DNA of 64,000 bases from NCBI GenBank assembly GCA_026003215.1, contig BPGV01000001.1:1641729-1705728 (forward strand), written 5' to 3'. Position numbers and translations under genes: made by a program. Shown here in pieces: positions 49,744 to 59,897 of this stretch (positions within the stretch are counted from its first letter, which is position 1; every line of letters starts with the position of its first letter). The notes below the pieces were generated by a model, which worked only from the letters and a program-made list of their open reading frames with translations, did no database searches and was not told the DNA's origin. Origin of the DNA: Bacteroidia bacterium. Its GTDB lineage: Bacteria > Bacteroidota > Bacteroidia > SpSt-205.

Positions 49744-50577
49744 GTGTTCCCAGAGACGCTACCGGAAATAGCGGATAGCGACTTAGAGCAGTTTTTCCAA
49801 ATCATGCTTACCCAGTATGGCTATGACTTTCGGGGTTATGCGCCGGCTTCGCTCAAGCGGCGCTTAGGGACGGTGCTCAAGCGGTATGGCCTCGCGGATA
49901 TGCGCACGCTCAACCAACGGCTCCTCACCCAGCCAGACTACTGCGAACGGTTTATCAACGAAATCACGGTCTCTACTACGGAGCTTTTTCGGGACCCTTC
50001 GGCCTGGATCGCGCTTAAGACGCAGGCCTTGCCGCTTTTCTTATCTATGCCGCAGCTGCGGATATGGCATGCCGGCGCCTCTACCGGCGAAGAGGTCCTC
50101 TCTATGGCTATCCTCCTCACCGAAATGGGATTGTACGACCGAGCCCAGCTTATCGCTACAGATATAGACAAGCGTTCCCTGAACCAAGCCCAAAAAGCTA
50201 CCTATCCTTTGCGCAACCGAGCCCTGTATGAGCAAAACCTAAAAACCGTTTTCCCTTTGAGTTCTTTGGATAAATACGCCAGAGAAGAAGAAGGCCAATT
50301 GGTTTTTCGTCAAGAGCTTTTGCGGAATGTTCTTTATTTACAACATAATTTGGTTTCTGAGGGTGTATTTGGTCTATTTGAAATAGTTTTGTGCCGAAAT
50401 GTGCTCATTTATTTTACGCCTGAGCTTCAAGATAGGGTGGTGATGAAGCTGGTAGATAGCCTGGTGCCGGGCGGAGTGCTCATGATTGGGACGAAAGAGT
50501 CGCTCTTTTGGTGCAGTGCAGCTAAGCGCCTGGTTGCCATCAATGAAAGCGAACGCCTCTACCGAAGACGCCAATGA
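49744..50577 (+). CDS. cheR: CheR-type protein-glutamate methyltransferase
   Basis: 277 residues from GTG 49744. N-terminal helical CheR domain with NEITVSTTELFRDP, SAM-binding GASTGEEVLSMAILL, and CRNVLIYF near the end. It should methylate glutamates of a receptor or other signalling protein. No chemoreceptor, CheA or CheW gene lies nearby, so it probably serves the adjacent PAS/phosphatase system. Overlaps cheB by 4 bp. Confidence 0.93.
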   Translation: MFPETLPEIADSDLEQFFQIMLTQYGYDFRGYAPASLKRRLGTVLKRYGLADMRTLNQRLLTQPDYCERFINEITVSTTELFRDPSAWIALKTQALPLFLSMPQLRIWHAGASTGEEVLSMAILLTEMGLYDRAQLIATDIDKRSLNQAQKATYPLRNRALYEQNLKTVFPLSSLDKYAREEEGQLVFRQELLRNVLYLQHNLVSEGVFGLFEIVLCRNVLIYFTPELQDRVVMKLVDSLVPGGVLMIGTKESLFWCSAAKRLVAINESERLYRRRQ

Positions 50578-51149
50578 AGGGACGCGAGGTATTTTTATGG
50601 GTAGTAGGGGGTTCGGCGGGGAGTTTTACCCCTGTGCGAAACTACCTGCATCAAATGCCTTATCGCCAGGAAATGGCCATACTCCTATGCCTCCATCGTA
50701 TGCGCAATCCCCGCATTAGCATGATTGAAGCGTTGGGACGCGTGCCGGAGTGGCGAGTACTCGAGCCAGACGATAAGACCTTTGTGGAAGGCGGCTTTGT
50801 ATATGTAGCCCCGGCGGATTATCACCTTTTGGTGGAAAAAGAGGGCTACTTAAGCTTGGCCGTAGATGAACCTGTGCACTTTTCTCGGCCGAGTATAGAT
50901 GTACTCTTGCAATCGGTGGTGCAGGCCCAGTGGCCCCGAGCCGGGGCAGCGCTCCTCTCGGGAGCCAATAGGGATGGGGCTTACGGGATGTACCTCTTCC
51001 ATAAAGCAGGCTACTTTACGGCTGTCCAAGACCCCGCCGACGCCGAAATCGCCACCATGCCGGAAGCCGCTTTGGCTTTGTTTGAACCGAAGGTGCGCTT
51101 TCCCATCTCTCAGCTTGTAGAGGTAACCTTGCAAGCCTTATCTTTGTAA
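50574..51149 (+). CDS. cheB: CheB methylesterase domain protein without receiver
   Basis: 191 residues, only the CheB catalytic domain. Triad candidates: Ser in GGSAGSF, His in LHRMR and Asp in SGANRDGA; YVAPADYH is also conserved. The N-terminal receiver domain of chemotaxis CheB is absent, so activity would not be controlled by CheA phosphorylation. Coupled to cheR by a 4-bp overlap. Confidence 0.9.
   Translation: MKGREVFLWVVGGSAGSFTPVRNYLHQMPYRQEMAILLCLHRMRNPRISMIEALGRVPEWRVLEPDDKTFVEGGFVYVAPADYHLLVEKEGYLSLAVDEPVHFSRPSIDVLLQSVVQAQWPRAGAALLSGANRDGAYGMYLFHKAGYFTAVQDPADAEIATMPEAALALFEPKVRFPISQLVEVTLQALSL
51139..51146 (+). promoter_or_regulatory. TAnnTTTG -7 box of the PEBP/phosphatase unit
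   Basis: TATCTTTG ends 6 nt before ATG 51153; a TTG lies 21 nt upstream of the box, a fair -33 element. It lies inside the cheB 3' end. Confidence 0.6.
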
Positions 51150-51152
51150 AAC

Positions 51153-51635
51153 ATGAGGTATATTTTGAGCCTCTCGGCGGCCTTATGGGCGCAAATGTGG
51201 GTGCGTATCCAGGGGTACGAGCCCGGGGCCTTCCTTCCGCCTGAGCATACGTGTGATGGCGCAGATATAGCGCTTACTATTCAATGGGGGGGCGCCCCCG
51301 CCGGTACCCAAGTGTATGTACTTCGGCTGTATGACCCGGATGCCCCAGCGGATACTTTTACCCATTGGATTGTGTATAACTTCTCGGGGCAGGAGGTAGG
51401 CCCCCGAGCACAGCACCTTAAGGAGGGCTATAATGACTTTGGGCAAAAGGGCTATAGGGGGCCTTGTCCGCCGCCCAGGGATGCGGCTCATAGGTATGTC
51501 GCCGAAGTATATGCTCTGCGTCGGCCTCTGCAGGTGAGTGAGCCGGTGACTTGGGACAAACTACGACCGGCGCTCGCTGACAAAGTATTGGCGCGGGCAG
51601 AGACTTTTGTGCGGTATAAGCGGCAGAAGCACTAA
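51153..51635 (+). CDS. PEBP (YbhB/YbcL) family protein, exported
   Basis: 160 residues with a short signal-like start (MRYILSLSAALWAQ). PEBP motifs: LRLYDPDAPADTFTHWIVYN and YRGPCPPPRDAAHRY. Such proteins bind anionic ligands such as phospholipid heads; the bacterial role is open. Its stop overlaps the start of the phosphatase gene (TAATG). Confidence 0.88.
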   Translation: MRYILSLSAALWAQMWVRIQGYEPGAFLPPEHTCDGADIALTIQWGGAPAGTQVYVLRLYDPDAPADTFTHWIVYNFSGQEVGPRAQHLKEGYNDFGQKGYRGPCPPPRDAAHRYVAEVYALRRPLQVSEPVTWDKLRPALADKVLARAETFVRYKRQKH

Positions 51636-54361
51636 TGCGGCGCTGGGGCATAGCCGATTATCTGGGGGTGGGGTTGGCGGTCATAGTAGGGGGCGTAGGC
51701 TTTATCCTCCTTTCTGGGATATGGGTGATTACCCAGCGGGACCTTGCGCTGGCAGCAGGGGCCCCCACATGGGTCCAGTGGGACAAAGCCCTTTCCTTGT
51801 GGGCGTATGGCGCTTTGGTCCTGCTTCTGCTTTTAGCGGTGGGAGTAGCCTTGTGGTGGTGGGGGTCGGTCGCCCGGGGCCTCCTTAGTCTAAGGGATTA
51901 CTTGCGTGGGCTTTTATGGGAGGGGCGCGAGCCGGAGCCGGTGTCCTTCTCTCTCCCTCAGGAAGCCCAGGAAGTTTCGGAAGGGCTTAGGGCCATAGCG
52001 GCCTTTTTACGGGTTATCCAAGAGGCGGCTCGGGGCGAGCGTCACAGCGTGCCTCCTCACGCCAGTGATTGGCCGCCTTTCCTGCGCGAAGGGGCCGAAA
52101 CCCTGATTGCCCACTTGACGCACCTCGCCCAGCGTAAAGCCCTCTCAGAAGCCCTATTTGCACATGCGCTCATGCTACTCCGTTATGGTCAGCAAGAAAG
52201 TGAGGTAGAGCGGTATGTAGAGAAGGCAGGACAGGTATTCTTACAGGCTGTGGGGGCAGCTATTGGAGCCTTTTATCGGCTTGAAGGGGATAAGCTTCGT
52301 CGCGTATATGCTTATGCGTATTCGGCCCAAGCGCCGGAGGTTTTCCAGATAGGGGAAGGGTGGGTCGGACAAGTCGCCCGGGAGGGGCACCCGCTCTGGC
52401 TTACAGCTGTACCGGCAGAGTACGAGGTCGGCTCAGGTCTGGGCCGCGCTACCCCGCATGCATTGGCTATCTTACCGGTAATCGCTGGCGCTACTATCCG
52501 AGGTGTTTGGGATTTGGCCAGCTTCACGGAATGGGATCCCGTACAGCGTGAAACCGCCGAAGCCCTCCTACCTTTTTTTGCCATAGGGTACCTCCTCGTA
52601 GAAGAGGCTCAGCGTGATACTCTCCTTCAAAAAGCCCTCACGGAGACCCAGCGCTCTTTGGAGGCGGAAAGGCACCGCCTGGCGGACATGGCGACCCAAC
52701 ACGACTCGCTCAAAAAAGACCTCCACACCCTAAAGCAGAGGCTTTCAGAAGCCGAAGAGGCCTCTGTGCGGCTCAATCAGCGGTATGCCCTTCAGCAAAA
52801 GTACTGGGAGACTATTATAGAGCACCTCTCCGAAGTGGTGGCGCTTTTTGACTCGACAGGGCGCCTTACGTACCTGAGTCCTTCCGTGACGCGCGTATTA
52901 GGCTATGCGCCCGCTGAGCTCCAGGTGTTTTTCCGCCCTGTAGAAAAAAGCGATGCCGATGCCGTAAAAGCGTATTTTTCCCAGCTATTACACACCGAAG
53001 GAGAGCCCCTTACCCTTCGTTTTAGGTATCGTCATAAAGCAGGGCATACGCTTTGGGTAGAAGCCGCCGGTCAAAACTACCTCCACTACCCCGCTATCCA
53101 GGGCATACTTTTGGTTTTACGCGACATTACTGAACAAGTTGAATATGAAAAGCAATATCGTACCCGCCTAAAGTTCCAATCTCTGGTAGAAAACTCTCCT
53201 GATATTATATTTAGAACCGATAGAGAGGGGCGGTTCTTGTATGTCAATCCCAGCATAGAGCGGTATACAGGTTATCCTCCCTCTCACTACATACGGAATA
53301 CGATTTATTCGGTAGGTTTTTCGCTGGAGGAGGTGCATTTCTGGCAGGAGTTTATCGGAGCGGTGTTTAGTAGCTTGGAGGTGCAATCGGCGGAGATAGA
53401 TTTTCCTTCTATTTATGGGATTCGTCGGATGGCGGTGCGGGGGATACCGGAGGTAGGACCAGAAGGCGAGATAGAGACGATGGTGGTGCTACTTCAGGAT
53501 ATTACGGAGCTCAGGCAGGTACAGGAACAGCTCCGACTGCAGAATATACGGTTAGAGCAGGCTAAGCTGGTATTAGAGCAGCAAAAACGGGAGCTCGAGG
53601 AAAAAAATCGGGATATAATGGAGAGTATCACGTATGCGCGGCGGATACAAGGGGCGCTTATTCCAGGGGAGGAGGGGTTGGCTGAGTTTTTCCCAGATAG
53701 CTTTGTGCTCCATTATTTGCGGGATGTGGTGGGGGGAGATTTTTATTGGTACGGCGCTGTGGATAATAAAGTCGTAGTAGCGGTGGTAGATTGTACGGGG
53801 CATGGGGTGCCAGGGGCTTTCATGACTTTTTTGGGCTACACCCTGTTAGAGACGGCGGTACATGAGCGGCGTATCTTGACGCCATCCGAGATCCTGTATT
53901 TTATGGACATGCGGTTGCGAGAGATGTTTTCTGGGCAAGAGAGTGTGCAGGATGGCATGGATGTAGCGCTCTGTGTGATAGAGCCGGAGCGGCGTATATT
54001 GCGGTTTGCTGGGGCCCATCGGCCGCTTTTATTGTATCAAAATGCCACTTGGTCGCTCGTAGCGGGGGCGCCCGCGGGTTTAGGGGGGGCGGCTTGGCTC
54101 GGGGAAGTCAAGCAGTTTACCACCCAAACCTTCTCGTATCAAGCCGGCGATCAGATCTATCTGTATTCAGACGGGTTTTTGGACCAGTTTGACCGAGAGG
54201 GGAATCGCCGCTATTCCCACCGGCGCTTCCGAGAGTTCTTAGCTACTTGGGGGCATCTCCCTATGAAAGATCAGGCGCGTCTCCTGGTAGAAGAGCTTAA
54301 CGCGTGGAAGGGAGAAGGTTCGCTTACAGATGATGTAACGGTGGTAGGTATCCGTTTATGA
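51635..54361 (+). CDS. Membrane GAF-PAS-PAS-SpoIIE (PP2C) phosphatase, SiaA-like
   Basis: 908 residues. Two N-terminal membrane segments (about 10-32 and 53-75), a linker that may be HAMP-like, GAF (about 170-325), coiled coil (about 330-390), PAS1 (about 395-500), PAS2 (about 510-625, FRTDREGRFLYVNPSIERYTG), coiled coil (about 625-665) and a SpoIIE phosphatase (about 670-908). Metal-binding Asp are in RDVVGGDFYW (about 702), VDCTGHG (about 718), GMDVAL (about 775) and DDVTVVGI (about 898), so it should be active. By analogy with SiaA it would dephosphorylate the SiaC-like proteins encoded downstream. PAS/GAF ligands unknown. Confidence 0.92.
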   Translation: MRRWGIADYLGVGLAVIVGGVGFILLSGIWVITQRDLALAAGAPTWVQWDKALSLWAYGALVLLLLLAVGVALWWWGSVARGLLSLRDYLRGLLWEGREPEPVSFSLPQEAQEVSEGLRAIAAFLRVIQEAARGERHSVPPHASDWPPFLREGAETLIAHLTHLAQRKALSEALFAHALMLLRYGQQESEVERYVEKAGQVFLQAVGAAIGAFYRLEGDKLRRVYAYAYSAQAPEVFQIGEGWVGQVAREGHPLWLTAVPAEYEVGSGLGRATPHALAILPVIAGATIRGVWDLASFTEWDPVQRETAEALLPFFAIGYLLVEEAQRDTLLQKALTETQRSLEAERHRLADMATQHDSLKKDLHTLKQRLSEAEEASVRLNQRYALQQKYWETIIEHLSEVVALFDSTGRLTYLSPSVTRVLGYAPAELQVFFRPVEKSDADAVKAYFSQLLHTEGEPLTLRFRYRHKAGHTLWVEAAGQNYLHYPAIQGILLVLRDITEQVEYEKQYRTRLKFQSLVENSPDIIFRTDREGRFLYVNPSIERYTGYPPSHYIRNTIYSVGFSLEEVHFWQEFIGAVFSSLEVQSAEIDFPSIYGIRRMAVRGIPEVGPEGEIETMVVLLQDITELRQVQEQLRLQNIRLEQAKLVLEQQKRELEEKNRDIMESITYARRIQGALIPGEEGLAEFFPDSFVLHYLRDVVGGDFYWYGAVDNKVVVAVVDCTGHGVPGAFMTFLGYTLLETAVHERRILTPSEILYFMDMRLREMFSGQESVQDGMDVALCVIEPERRILRFAGAHRPLLLYQNATWSLVAGAPAGLGGAAWLGEVKQFTTQTFSYQAGDQIYLYSDGFLDQFDREGNRRYSHRRFREFLATWGHLPMKDQARLLVEELNAWKGEGSLTDDVTVVGIRL

Positions 54362-54369
54362 GCTTTCAT

Positions 54370-54377
54370 TATCTTTG
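54370..54377 (+). promoter_or_regulatory. TAnnTTTG -7 box of the first SiaB-like gene
   Basis: TATCTTTG ends 2 nt before GTG 54380 and 8 nt before an in-frame ATG at 54386; the spacing in other genes favours the ATG. Confidence 0.5.
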
Positions 54378-54379
54378 CC

Positions 54380-54958
54380 GTGGATATGGTGGCTTCACAA
54401 TCGGAGCTCTTGCATGAGCCGGCGCTGAGCTATGCGTACCCCCTGTATCGCAACATGCTGGATAATAGCATCATTTTCATGTATCATGGCCCTATTACAC
54501 CCGATCTGGTGGTAGATGTCCTAAGCATGGTAGAATATCGCTTGGGAGATGCTAAGGAGGACAGGCGGATAAGCAAAAAGCTCTTTAATATCATGGTGGA
54601 ATCCTTTTCCTTAGGAGAAGATCAGCGGCGGGGCCATTCTGTGCTTATTGTGCGGCAACTGCCCTACCTGTACGCCGTAAGCATTGGGCGTCGCATCCCC
54701 AGCGGAGTGGTATATCAGGTAAAAGCTTTTTTGGATTGGGTCAATACCCTCTCGCCCGAGCAGCTCCGAGAAGAATATCACCGCGCTCTCCAGACCAAAG
54801 AGGCTGACAAGCCCCAAGGCATAGGAGGTTTGCCGTTGATCAGTATTTTGGACCTTGCGCGTAAATCGCATGATGTCTTGCATTATGCGTTTGAGTATCT
54901 GGATGATGAGGACTCGTTTTTCTCGCTTGAAGCACGGATCCAAAAAAATATGATATAA
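54380..54958 (+). CDS. SiaB-like protein 1 (DUF6272), predicted pseudokinase
   Basis: 192 residues from GTG 54380 (190 from ATG 54386). It aligns end to end with SiaB-like protein 2: DNSIIFMYHGPITPDLV, SKKLFNIMVES, LDLARKS and SFFSLEARI all match. The N-box is different: copy 2 has E59..N63..H66H67, whereas here Glu74 is kept and then SFSLGEDQRR replaces the QN-HH part with a deletion. The Gly-rich ATP lid GTAGLGMID is IGGLPLISILD. Without the Asn that holds Mg-ATP it should not phosphorylate. A regulatory or SiaC-binding role is inferred. Confidence 0.85.
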   Translation: MDMVASQSELLHEPALSYAYPLYRNMLDNSIIFMYHGPITPDLVVDVLSMVEYRLGDAKEDRRISKKLFNIMVESFSLGEDQRRGHSVLIVRQLPYLYAVSIGRRIPSGVVYQVKAFLDWVNTLSPEQLREEYHRALQTKEADKPQGIGGLPLISILDLARKSHDVLHYAFEYLDDEDSFFSLEARIQKNMI

Positions 54959-54961
54959 GCT

Positions 54962-55345
54962 ATGGAAGCTTTGCGGATAGAATCGACTCACAAGACGCCA
55001 CGGGTGATTTTGGACCCAGAGAATGGGATTTTTGAGTTTTCGGGAAGAAGTATTCCGGAGGATGCTTTGGGGTTTTATAATCCCATATTTGAATGGTTGG
55101 ATAAGTATGCTCAGCAGCCGCTGCCCAGGACGCATGTGCGCTTTGACTTGGAATACTTCAATACGAGCAGTTCTAAAAATATTTTAGAGATACTTAAGCG
55201 CCTGGAAGCTATCCATGCCTCAGGTCACGAGGTGCGCGTTACATGGTTTTATGACGAAGATGATGAGGACATGGAAGAGACCGGACAAGATTATCAAGCG
55301 CTGCTCAATTTGCCTATTGAACTTTCCGTAAAAGTCCAATCGTAG
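54962..55345 (+). CDS. SiaC-like protein 1 (DUF1987)
   Basis: 127 residues, STAS-like DUF1987 fold. The conserved FNTSSSK motif places Thr68 at the same position as the phosphorylated Thr68 reported for Pseudomonas SiaC. A late acidic loop (DEDDEDMEETGQDY) is shared with copy 2. In the Sia system unphosphorylated SiaC binds and activates the diguanylate cyclase SiaD; no cyclase is seen here, so the target is unknown. Starts 3 bp after the pseudokinase gene. Confidence 0.9.
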   Translation: MEALRIESTHKTPRVILDPENGIFEFSGRSIPEDALGFYNPIFEWLDKYAQQPLPRTHVRFDLEYFNTSSSKNILEILKRLEAIHASGHEVRVTWFYDEDDEDMEETGQDYQALLNLPIELSVKVQS

Positions 55346-55351
55346 CCGCCT

Positions 55352-55915
55352 ATGAGTATGACATATAGCTATTATAAAAACATGCAGCTGAATAACATCA
55401 TCTTTGTATATCAAGGTGAGGTTACGGCTGACCTGGTGTCTTCTATCTTGCAGATGGTAGAAAATAAGCTGGAGGGGGAGGGGGAGGATCGTAAGGTCAA
55501 AAAACGGGTCTTTAATGTAATGGTAGAATGCCTGCAAAATGTATATCATCATTTGGATGCGCTGCCCCCCACGGATCCATCCAATCCCGTGCGGGATAAG
55601 ACGGCGCTGCTTATGATTGGGCGGGAAGAAAAAGATTATTTTATTATCACGGGTAACCATGTGCTCAACGATAGGATTCCTGACCTCAAGGCGCGCTTAG
55701 ACCGGATTAATCGTGCCAGCAAAGAAGAGCTCAAGCAGCTGTATCAAGAGGTGCTCACGGGTACAGGGTTCAGTGAGAAAGGGACAGCCGGGTTGGGTAT
55801 GATAGATATTGCCCGAAAGTCTGGGCAGCGGCTGGGGTACGACTTCCACCCTGTGAATGAGAAGTATTCCTTCTTTAGCCTGGAAGCCCGAGTTTCACGT
55901 ATTCCTGAGAAGTAA
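55352..55915 (+). CDS. SiaB-like protein kinase 2 (DUF6272), probably active
   Basis: 187 residues, GHKL-related kinase fold. N-box E59-x3-N63-x2-H66-H67, TGN near residue 100, and Gly-rich lid GTAGLGMIDIARKSG are all present. By analogy with SiaB it should phosphorylate the SiaC-like proteins at Thr68, opposing the SpoIIE phosphatase. It starts 6 bp after siaC-like 1. Confidence 0.9.
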   Translation: MSMTYSYYKNMQLNNIIFVYQGEVTADLVSSILQMVENKLEGEGEDRKVKKRVFNVMVECLQNVYHHLDALPPTDPSNPVRDKTALLMIGREEKDYFIITGNHVLNDRIPDLKARLDRINRASKEELKQLYQEVLTGTGFSEKGTAGLGMIDIARKSGQRLGYDFHPVNEKYSFFSLEARVSRIPEK

Positions 55916-55916
55916 A

Positions 55917-55924
55917 TAACTTTG
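55917..55924 (+). promoter_or_regulatory. TAnnTTTG -7 box of the second SiaC-like gene
   Basis: TAACTTTG directly behind the SiaB 2 stop; ends 7 nt before ATG 55932, so this gene may also be expressed alone. Confidence 0.5.
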
Positions 55925-55931
55925 CCTGCCC

Positions 55932-56306
55932 ATGCGCAACCTTGTTATAGAGCCGACCTCCAAAACACCCAAGGTCATCCTGAATGCGGACCTGGGTATT
56001 TTTGAGATTACCGGACGAAGCATACCTGAAGATGCGATTGGCTTTTACAGAAAAGTTTTAGATTGGATAGAGGAGTATAGTAAAAATCCCCTTCCTGAAA
56101 CCGCATTCAAGTTTCATTTGGAGTACTTTAACACCAGCTCGTCTAAATGCCTCCTGGATATTTTCCGTAAGCTTGAACGGATGCACAAGAATGGTCATAA
56201 AGTGGTGATACGATGGCACTATGATGCCGATGATGAAGACATGGCAGAGACAGGGCAAGACTATCAGGCTTTATTAGATGTACCTTTTGAACTGGTACCC
56301 GTATGA
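55932..56306 (+). CDS. SiaC-like protein 2 (DUF1987)
   Basis: 124 residues, clear paralog of copy 1: both share GRSIPEDA, LEYFNTSSSK with Thr68 in the same position, and the acidic ETGQDYQALL loop. Substitutions are mostly in surface helices (for example YRKVLDWIEEY against YNPIFEWLDKY), which may give partner specificity. The stop overlaps the next gene by 4 bp, coupling it to a membrane coiled-coil protein. Confidence 0.9.
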   Translation: MRNLVIEPTSKTPKVILNADLGIFEITGRSIPEDAIGFYRKVLDWIEEYSKNPLPETAFKFHLEYFNTSSSKCLLDIFRKLERMHKNGHKVVIRWHYDADDEDMAETGQDYQALLDVPFELVPV

Positions 56307-56764
56307 GCCAGCAAGATCAATATTTCCCCGAAGAAACGGCATTCTTAGAAGAAGCTCGGGCAAAAGCCGAAAAAGGAGCGCTCTCGCCCGAGGAGTGGCG
56401 CCAAGCCTATGGGATATTGATAGAAAACTATGAAAACTTGTTAAAAACTGTGGAGGTTCTCACCCACCAGGCGACGCAGTTAGAAAATAAGCTGGAGAAG
56501 GTGCGCTCTCAGCTGGAGCTCCAAAAAAAGGCGCTAAGCATGGAGGTAGAGGGCTTGGAAAAACAAGTGCATGTGCAGCAAAAAGAGGTTCATAAAAAAG
56601 CTCAAGAAAGAGATTTCTTATACGATCAGATGGGGAAAACCCGATTGATGCTTATAGTTATATTGGCAATTCTACTGGTGATTGTGGGTTTTGTCTTTTA
56701 CTATCTTTTTGTGGATACAGAGCGCATGATTACATTCGTCAAAAGACTACGGGGTTTGGAGTGA
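56303..56764 (+). CDS. Coiled-coil protein with C-terminal membrane anchor, copy 1
   Basis: 153 residues: helical N-terminus (EEWRQAYGILIENYENLLKT), long coiled coil (about 55-110) and one membrane segment (about 116-138) near the C-terminus with a short basic tail. It is a paralog of the gene at 56799. The N-terminal motif resembles the dimerising signalling helix found before output domains in Bacteroidota proteins, but no output domain is attached. A membrane-bound docking partner for SiaC is an inference. Confidence 0.75.
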   Translation: MSQQDQYFPEETAFLEEARAKAEKGALSPEEWRQAYGILIENYENLLKTVEVLTHQATQLENKLEKVRSQLELQKKALSMEVEGLEKQVHVQQKEVHKKAQERDFLYDQMGKTRLMLIVILAILLVIVGFVFYYLFVDTERMITFVKRLRGLE

Positions 56765-56784
56765 GCGGTATGGAGGGGAAGCCT

Positions 56785-56792
56785 TACCTTTG
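56785..56792 (+). promoter_or_regulatory. TAnnTTTG -7 box of coiled-coil copy 2
   Basis: TACCTTTG ends 6 nt before ATG 56799. Together with AAGGTA it forms a small palindrome (TACCTT-TGT-AAGGTA) resembling the recA/FAH element. Confidence 0.5.
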
Positions 56793-56798
56793 TAAGGT

Positions 56799-57266
56799 AT
56801 GAGTGTAAGTAATCGTAAGGACCTCTTTGCGGAGGAGTCCAAGCTGCTGCAGGAGGCTCGTTTGCGACTGGCTCAGGTGGACTTGGGGAGTGAGGCGTGG
56901 CAGCAAGAATATAAAAAGATGGTGGAGGAGTACGAAAAGCTTTTAGGAGAAGCGCGGGCTCTTACGCGTATTGCTGACAGAAACCAGCGTCGCCTGGATG
57001 AAATGAATGCTGAGTTAGAAAGACAAAACGAGCTTTTGCGCCTCAAAGAAGAAGAAGTCAAAAAGACTCAACAGGCTATTATTCATAACTATCAACGCAT
57101 CGCAGAAGAAGGTGCTCTTATGGACAAGCGAGTAGGGCGTATTCAGATACTTCTTATAGTGATGATAGCTGTATTAGTGGTTATTATTCTTTTCATGCTT
57201 TACTACCTCATCTTCGAGCCGCAACGAGCGGTAGATCTCATGGAGTCGCTTCGAAAATCGCGCTGA
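56799..57266 (+). CDS. Coiled-coil protein with C-terminal membrane anchor, copy 2
   Basis: 155 residues, same layout as copy 1: EAWQQEYKKMVEEYEKLLGE, then LTRIADRNQRRLDEMNAE, a coiled coil to about 110 and one membrane segment (about 117-139). The LTRIADRNQ helix closely resembles the linker seen just before cyclase or kinase domains in other signalling proteins. Here the only thing after it is the membrane anchor. Probably dimeric, with the helical part in the cytoplasm. Confidence 0.75.
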   Translation: MSVSNRKDLFAEESKLLQEARLRLAQVDLGSEAWQQEYKKMVEEYEKLLGEARALTRIADRNQRRLDEMNAELERQNELLRLKEEEVKKTQQAIIHNYQRIAEEGALMDKRVGRIQILLIVMIAVLVVIILFMLYYLIFEPQRAVDLMESLRKSR

Positions 57267-58711: not shown

Positions 58712-59352
58712 TGCGCCTACGGCGGCTCGTCGTTAATCCCTATCAAGAAAACACCTATCTCCTCTGTGCGTCCAATGGGGACGCCTGGGTGATAGACCCC
58801 GGCATGCATACCACCCAAGAGTATCGGGCATTTGAACAGATCTTGGCGGAAGAAGGGGCACGCCTCACAGGGATATACCTTACCCATGCCCACATAGATC
58901 ATGTTTTAGGGGTGGCTTGGGTCGTGCAAAAATATAAAGTCCCCCTTTTCTACCACGCTGCGGAAGAGGTGGTCTATGACCATGCCGCCGAATATGCGAC
59001 TTTGATGGGCCTAAACTATGTCTCTGGCCCTCGCGCCGATGCGTACTTAGCCGAGGGACAAGAACTGACCTTAGGGGACATACGGGTAAAGGTGCTTTTT
59101 GTGCCAGGGCACTCGCCGGGGCATGTGGCCTTTTATCTTCCGGATCTGGGGTGGCTTCTTTCGGGAGATGTGCTCTTCCGGGGCAGTATTGGAAACTATG
59201 AGCTACCTTTGGCCAGCTACGATACCCTTATGCAGTCGCTTCGGGAGAAGGTATTACCCCTGGGAGATGCAGTGCAAGTGTGGCCAGGTCACTGCGAATC
59301 TACCACCATAGGCATAGAAAAGCGTTCAAATCCATTCCTCTACGCTCTATGA
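58711..59352 (+). CDS. MBL-fold hydrolase, glyoxalase II-like (YcbL type)
   Basis: 213 residues. Metal motif THAHIDHVLG, His in VPGHSPGHV, Asp in LSGDVLF, and the late His in WPGHCE. Similar to YcbL-type thioester hydrolases. The C-terminal substrate domain of true glyoxalase II is missing. Overlaps the STAS gene start by 4 bp. Confidence 0.9.
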   Translation: MRLRRLVVNPYQENTYLLCASNGDAWVIDPGMHTTQEYRAFEQILAEEGARLTGIYLTHAHIDHVLGVAWVVQKYKVPLFYHAAEEVVYDHAAEYATLMGLNYVSGPRADAYLAEGQELTLGDIRVKVLFVPGHSPGHVAFYLPDLGWLLSGDVLFRGSIGNYELPLASYDTLMQSLREKVLPLGDAVQVWPGHCESTTIGIEKRSNPFLYAL

Positions 59353-59897
59353 GATATCAGATAGAGGAGGTGGAAGGCGGTACCCTTTTCCGCCCGTTAG
59401 AGGAGCGGCTCAATGCTACGCATACGCCAGCCCTCAAGGCGGAATTTGCGGTGCTGGCTCACTCGCGCACGGGAGGGGTGATTATAGACCTGTCTTCTGT
59501 GCAATCCTTAGACAGTTCGGTCTTGAGTGCGCTACTCCTTTTGCGGCGCATGCTGGGGGAGAGGCCTTTGGCTGTAGTGGCGCCGCATCCTCCCCTGCGC
59601 TCCGTATTTTCTCTGTCTAAACTGGATGAAATCTTCACGCTTATGCCGACGATAGACGAGGCTTTGCTGTATCTGCAAAATCAATCCGCCCTTGTGGCGA
59701 AGAAAGCCGAAGAAGAGTGGGAAGACGAAGAGGAAGAATGGGAAGAAGAGGACGAAGAAGAGTGGGAGGACGAGGACTGGGATGAGGAAGAATGGGACGA
59801 AGAAGAGTGGGACGAAGAAGAGTGGGACGAAGACGACTGGGAGGAAGAAGAGTTAGAAGAAGACTGGGAGGAAGAAGAAGAGGAGGAAGAAGACTAA
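59349..59897 (+). CDS. STAS-domain protein with acidic/Trp-rich tail
   Basis: 182 residues from ATG 59349, which overlaps the MBL stop (ATGA). Residues 1-112 are a STAS fold (anti-sigma antagonist type) with LDSSVLSALL; Ser56 matches the phosphorylated Ser of SpoIIAA. Residues 121-182 are almost only Glu and Asp with Trp every five residues over much of the stretch (124, 131, 139, 144, 149, 154, 159, 164, 173), encoded by 15-bp imperfect repeats. It may mimic nucleic acid or mediate binding. No anti-sigma kinase is adjacent; the Sia cluster lies 2 kb upstream. Confidence 0.88.
   Translation: MRYQIEEVEGGTLFRPLEERLNATHTPALKAEFAVLAHSRTGGVIIDLSSVQSLDSSVLSALLLLRRMLGERPLAVVAPHPPLRSVFSLSKLDEIFTLMPTIDEALLYLQNQSALVAKKAEEEWEDEEEEWEEEDEEEWEDEDWDEEEWDEEEWDEEEWDEDDWEEEELEEDWEEEEEEEED

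Follow-up and report, generated by a model that had tools for sequence, protein, structure and literature searches.

The closest described relative of the system reported here is SiaABCD of Pseudomonas aeruginosa (PMC7647112, PMC8457831), in which a PP2C phosphatase (SiaA), a protein with the SiaB kinase fold and SiaC, which carries Thr-68 (T68), are encoded in the order A-B-C, followed by the stalk-bearing diguanylate cyclase SiaD. In the SiaC–SiaD structure (7E6G), SiaC docks on the stalk helix via SiaD residues R74, K77, V78, R80, I81, S82 and D83, with further contacts at R84, Y85, Q86, M88, R90 and D91, and T68 of SiaC inserts beside S82 and Q86 (PMC8457831). Control of adjacent proteins by SiaC was suggested in the same work (PMC8457831), and SiaD is the only target of a SiaC-family (DUF1987) protein that was found in the literature, though the family is widespread. 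A related cluster lies at 51635–57266 on the + strand of the window analysed here, a 64,000-nucleotide stretch of a Bacteroidia bacterium genome, and encodes, in order, a SiaA-like phosphatase, SiaB1, SiaC1, SiaB2, SiaC2 and two coiled-coil proteins, CC1 and CC2. Phosphatase, SiaB fold, SiaC with T68 and gene order are all shared with SiaABCD, and the SiaD docking motif is recognisable in CC2. Unlike in SiaABCD, the stalk is membrane-anchored without a catalytic domain and there is no GGDEF domain, the B-C pair is duplicated with one kinase degenerate, CheR-CheB genes lie upstream, and the phosphatase matches SiaA across the PP2C domain only. The SpoIIAB/SpoIIAA/SpoIIE and RsbW/RsbV/RsbU switches likewise combine a GHKL-type kinase, a STAS-like phosphoprotein and a PP2C phosphatase, but the output here is a coiled-coil stalk rather than a sigma factor, and SiaC and SiaB form families of their own.

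We consider it probable that this cluster encodes a partner switch of the SiaABC type with a SiaC-docking stalk anchored in the membrane, rather than SiaD, as its output; because SiaD is absent and the neighbouring membrane protein carries the docking sequence, the bare membrane stalk is the most likely target of the switch. The protein in question, CC2 (56799–57266, +), is a tail-anchored coiled-coil stalk whose most conserved stretch, the 22-residue predicted SiaC-docking block LTRIADRNQRRLDEMNAELERQ (56961–57026, +), aligns with SiaD residues 77–91 (KVARISDRYQQMMRD). The SiaD chain has a first site, LEKVARISDRYQQMM, and a second site, LERIARISDGFQSMA; the corresponding stretches are ALTRIADRNQRRL in CC2 and LLTRMGDRLQTKL in CC3, the stalk of a third set, SiaB3-SiaC3-CC3, located 0.1 Mb from the window cluster in the same genome. 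Conservation points the same way in CC3, whose longest conserved run is RMGDRLQAKL.

Direct sequence comparison of CC2 with solved structures gave no match, and the SiaD stalk sequence was reached by way of Azospirillum SiaD. To avoid circularity, a held-out profile of 46 residues was built from seven non-Bacteroidota stalks encoded beside SiaC, namely the two sites of P. aeruginosa SiaD, Azospirillum SiaD and its neighbouring histidine kinase, Caballeronia SiaD and two Cohnella GGDEF-HD proteins. With this profile CC2 scored 18–29 bits in all 11 species (25.0 bits, E 1.9e-6, for the window CC2), and the maximum among 3,000 shuffled CC sequences was 14.1 bits. When the 3,516 open reading frames (ORFs) of all fetched loci were scanned, every match at E<0.02 was to a gene adjoining SiaC. 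CC2 carries the docking stalk motif of P. aeruginosa SiaD and is predicted to bind SiaC through it.

The distribution of the stalk was then surveyed in 296 Bacteroidota genomes, 18 of which have SiaC, using a wider profile (A4) of 20 rows, some taken from the surveyed genomes themselves. A stalk was found in 13/18 genomes with SiaC and in 1/278 without it (Fisher 7e-18); restricting the count to genomes that gave no row to A4 left 6/10 against 1/278 (Fisher 2e-9), both values overstating the evidence because the genomes are related. That relatedness is one of several points that weigh against a stalk output: A4 finds no stalk in 5/18 genomes with SiaC, the held-out profile gives no more than background scores for CC1 and several CC3 orthologues, SiaD Ser-82, which bonds T68, is replaced by Ala in CC2 and by Gly in CC3, and among the seven training stalks SiaC binding is proven for the two P. 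aeruginosa SiaD sites only. In the single SiaC-less genome with a stalk (G280, in 420 contigs; locus L164), the stalk belongs to a class III cyclase-like protein, and SiaC may simply have been missed in the assembly.

In other genomes, the proteins that bear a SiaC-adjacent stalk include histidine kinases (L113, L136), a class III cyclase (L138), a SpoIIE phosphatase (L124), and GGDEF (L114) and GGDEF-HD (L104) proteins; stand-alone stalks of 77–99 amino acids lie beside SiaC in three loci (L120, L129, L133), and an independent membrane-anchored stalk resembling CC3 follows SiaC in a different family (L151). Across these sequences the stalk is used as a plug-in: its partner can be GGDEF, a histidine kinase, a class III cyclase, a phosphatase or a membrane anchor, or it has no partner. 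The earlier note did not recognise the layout among described systems, and the literature indeed gave no account of it or of the motif outside SiaD (a weak absence, as only open-access text was covered), but SiaA-SiaB-SiaC-[stalk + output] proved to be a common design, which leaves the layout less isolated than the note supposed. In Azospirillum lipoferum, SiaD shares its docking stalk with a histidine kinase of the SiaABC operon (L107, 4908–5843), so a single SiaC may control both there.

The source genome, a single contig of 2.27 Mb, encodes no GGDEF protein at all, which bears out the earlier claim that the SiaD cyclase is missing. A4 detected no stalk proteins in it besides CC2 and CC3, and the membrane stalks are therefore the only visible SiaC targets. 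Exactly three CC-family genes are present, each adjoining a SiaB-SiaC pair. CC1 (56303–56764, +), also a tail-anchored coiled-coil stalk, is a paralogue of CC2 (30% identity, E 1e-19) with a single transmembrane segment close to its C terminus, and its start overlaps the SiaC2 stop. In the AlphaFold2 model of CC2, a helix at residues 11–24 is followed by a single helix at 31–139 (109 residues) running into the membrane, a predicted arrangement that resembles the small N-terminal part and stalk of SiaD (PMC8457831). The 22 most conserved residues of CC1 form an altered docking block, LTHQATQLENKLEKVRSQLELQ (56459–56524, +), whose core is changed to QATQLE, itself the longest conserved run of CC1. 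The proposal that the coiled coils replace SiaD as output finds strong sequence support in the docking motif of CC2.

The source genome is close to hot-spring "Bacteroidia bacterium" metagenome-assembled genomes, and SiaC2 is 97% identical to the KatS3mg026 copy. The identical seven-gene order was recovered in ten other species (L029–L038, the L030 phosphatase being cut by a contig end), so the layout is not due to chance and the coiled-coil genes are indeed conserved next to SiaB and SiaC elsewhere, contrary to one of the two outcomes that the earlier note named as refuting its proposal. Gaps from SiaA through CC2 are 18, 3, 6, 16, −4 and 34 nucleotides, in general agreement with the 0–20 bp first noted, except between CC1 and CC2; in such a compact genome tight spacing is by itself weak evidence, and the weight rests on conservation. 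In an outgroup (L039) the order is CheR-CheB-SiaB1-SiaC1-SiaB2-SiaC2 with only one CC, which still reads TADKLEMKL, and then a pseudouridine synthase on the opposite strand. The SiaB3-SiaC3-CC3 set also occurs in six relatives and in one distant genome (L095).

All seven ORFs and their + strand orientation were as first described, with the families of the first five confirmed by Pfam. The earlier note had missed the degeneracy of SiaB1, the upstream CheR and CheB genes and the third SiaB-SiaC-coiled-coil set. The SiaA-like phosphatase (51635–54361; 908 amino acids) has two transmembrane segments followed by GAF, PAS-PAS and PP2C/SpoIIE domains, and the PP2C metal-binding residues are kept: GDFYW, VDCTGHG, YSDG and LTDDVTVVG are all present (PF07228, 89 bits). 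The NCBIfam SiaA match is confined to the PP2C part, reaching 180 of the 700 bits of the full-length equivalog. SiaC1 (54962–55345, +) and SiaC2 (55932–56306, +) score 143.8 and 145.5 bits with PF09345 (cut-off 24.5) and 91–94 of the 150 bits required by the NCBIfam P. aeruginosa-type SiaC equivalog, and SiaC2 aligns with P. aeruginosa SiaC (6KKO/7E6G) at E 1.6e-17. The predicted T68 equivalent lies in YFNTSSSK of both proteins (55163–55165 in SiaC1, 56133–56135 in SiaC2) and is conserved in 12/12 orthologues of each. SiaC1 and SiaC2 are sisters in the tree (support 100/86), which indicates tandem duplication within the lineage; separate acquisition of the two copies was ruled out on the same ground.

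The two SiaB proteins differ. SiaB2 (55352–55915, +; DUF6272, 143 bits) has intact ECLQN, TGN and GTAGLG motifs and scores 170 bits with the NCBIfam SiaB family kinase model (cut-off 85), whereas SiaB1 (54380–54958, +; DUF6272, 49 bits) falls short of that cut-off at 80.6 bits and in the core species has lost three motifs, namely the N-box Asn, TGN and the Gly-rich loop, keeping the Glu taken as the equivalent of P. aeruginosa E61. SiaB1 evolves faster than SiaB2, with a nonsynonymous rate (dN) of 0.24 against 0.036, only dN being compared as the synonymous rate (dS) is saturated. The AlphaFold2 model of SiaB1 (pLDDT, the model confidence score, 89) has as its top PDB match SiaB of the SiaB–SiaC complex 6KKO (E 4.5e-11), with SpoIIAB second. 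Because the motifs are lost and the model best matches SiaB of 6KKO, SiaB1 is probably a SiaC-binding pseudokinase. Mere decay of SiaB1 and CC1 was considered and ruled out: both are retained in all 11 species, and the QATQLE run is the most extended conserved one in CC1.

The sequence itself shows the genes, their kept or lost motifs, their conservation, the docking block and the lack of GGDEF. In the mechanism that we infer for catalysis, binding, the parallel coil and the next action of the stalk, SiaB2 would phosphorylate Thr-68 of SiaC2, and probably of SiaC1 too, and the membrane GAF-PAS-PAS-PP2C protein would sense a signal and strip the phosphate from SiaC. Free SiaC would then dock on the RIADRNQ block of CC2, taken to be a tail-anchored parallel coiled coil, and by analogy with the SiaD stalk may change or stabilise CC2 assembly at the membrane, until SiaB2 reverses docking by rephosphorylating SiaC. 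SiaB1 and CC1 would make up a diverged but conserved sub-module that tunes the switch. In it, SiaB1 probably binds SiaC but leaves it unphosphorylated, and CC1 probably modulates CC2 or binds SiaC in a different manner.

Docking is the step of this mechanism best supported by sequence; at the membrane the stalk may then serve as output or as tether. A reading that keeps the docking step makes the stalks tethers or sinks that hold free SiaC near the membrane phosphatase and tune the switch, with the true output elsewhere; this is possible, if well short of an even chance. It accords with the lack of a catalytic domain in CC1 and CC2, for which Pfam gave no convincing family and no GGDEF, with the short stand-alone stalks beside SiaC in three loci, and with the stalk-fused cyclases and kinases that in some SiaC-bearing genomes have no SiaC in the fetched flanks. 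On the other side, the A4 search of the source genome leaves no stalk-type target for SiaC other than CC2 and CC3.

The earlier note pictured two equivalent channels with one coil per SiaC, that is, insulated parallel switches SiaB1-SiaC1-CC1 and SiaB2-SiaC2-CC2 sharing the phosphatase. In its favour, the core clade has the matching gene order and copy numbers, SiaC1 is a paralogue of SiaC2 as CC1 is of CC2, and the docking core differs between CC1 and CC2; but SiaB1 is without nucleotide-site motifs, SiaC1 and SiaC2 are nearly identical in their docking contact residues, and the outgroup has two SiaC genes and one CC, so that we regard insulated channels as unlikely. Since SiaB1 and CC1 are altered and the docking residues of SiaC1 and SiaC2 are nearly all shared, one complete arm with a diverged modulator arm is likely instead. 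It is very improbable that the stalk motif is a generic coiled-coil linker about whose docking the SiaC neighbourhood says nothing, for although the coiled-coil linkers of kinases and cyclases are generally similar and ORF-scan matches above E 0.02 include noise, the motif is all but confined to SiaC-bearing genomes (1/278 of the others), shuffled sequences fail to reach CC2 scores and the motif matches the SiaD contact residues.

Immediately upstream of the switch lie genes for a CheR-type methyltransferase (49744–50577, +; PF03705 and PF01739), the sole CheR match in the genome, and a receiver-less CheB methylesterase effector domain (50574–51149, +; PF01339 at residues 9–170 of 191). One gene for a YbhB/YbcL (PEBP) family protein (51153–51635, +; TIGR00481, 91.8 bits) separates CheB from the phosphatase; it occupies this position in the core clade but not in L039, L055 or L099. 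CheR is adjacent to the Sia cluster in L029, L031–L037, L039, L055 and L099, and CheB is conserved with it, the order being CheR-CheB-membrane GAF-phosphatase-SiaB-SiaC in L055 and SiaB-SiaC-CheR-CheR-CheB-membrane GAF-phosphatase in L099. As linkage to SiaA, SiaB and SiaC recurs in three lineages, CheR and CheB probably belong to the Sia module. The homologous membrane GAF proteins encoded between CheB and the phosphatase in L055 (1983–2795) and L099 (5517–6296) resemble the GAF domain of the phosphatase itself, a possible shared sensor.

With chemoreceptor adaptation (MCP, CheA, CheW, CheR, CheB) the cluster shares the CheR and CheB genes and membrane coiled-coil proteins, but here CheB has no receiver, the MCP signalling domain (PF00015) and CheW domain (PF01584) are absent from the whole genome, and no MCP-type methylation consensus was found in CC1, CC2 or SiaA. 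We put forward only tentatively, as somewhat unlikely, that in this cell without chemoreceptors or GGDEF proteins CheR and CheB were recruited to the SiaABC switch and adapt it by reversibly modifying the membrane coils (or the phosphatase), with SiaC docking controlling bare-stalk assembly.

Several further observations were made in the same genome. The window encodes a STAS-like protein at 59280–59897 (TIGR00377, 29.9 bits, below cut-off) with an acidic, Trp-rich tail of ~60 residues (EEDWEEEDW repeats), a tail also present in six relatives (L032, L034–L038). Two orphan SiaC-family genes (L027, 6462–6923; L028, 6743–7111) have Ser in place of Thr-68 (YINSSS, YLNSSS), and their neighbours encode cytochrome oxidase and an acetyl-CoA synthetase. 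The whole genome (G000, 2.27 Mb) has about 19–20 SpoIIE phosphatase matches, set against only five SiaC and three SiaB.

The orphan CheR/CheB pair of this cluster is a candidate answer to the role of receptor-less CheR/CheB. The docking motif offers a sequence handle that would predict SiaC targets elsewhere, among them two kinds of cyclase, histidine kinases, phosphatases and membrane anchors, and it turns the suggestion that SiaC controls adjacent proteins into a testable code. In that light, SiaABC resembles a general module for Thr phosphorylation whose outputs can be exchanged.

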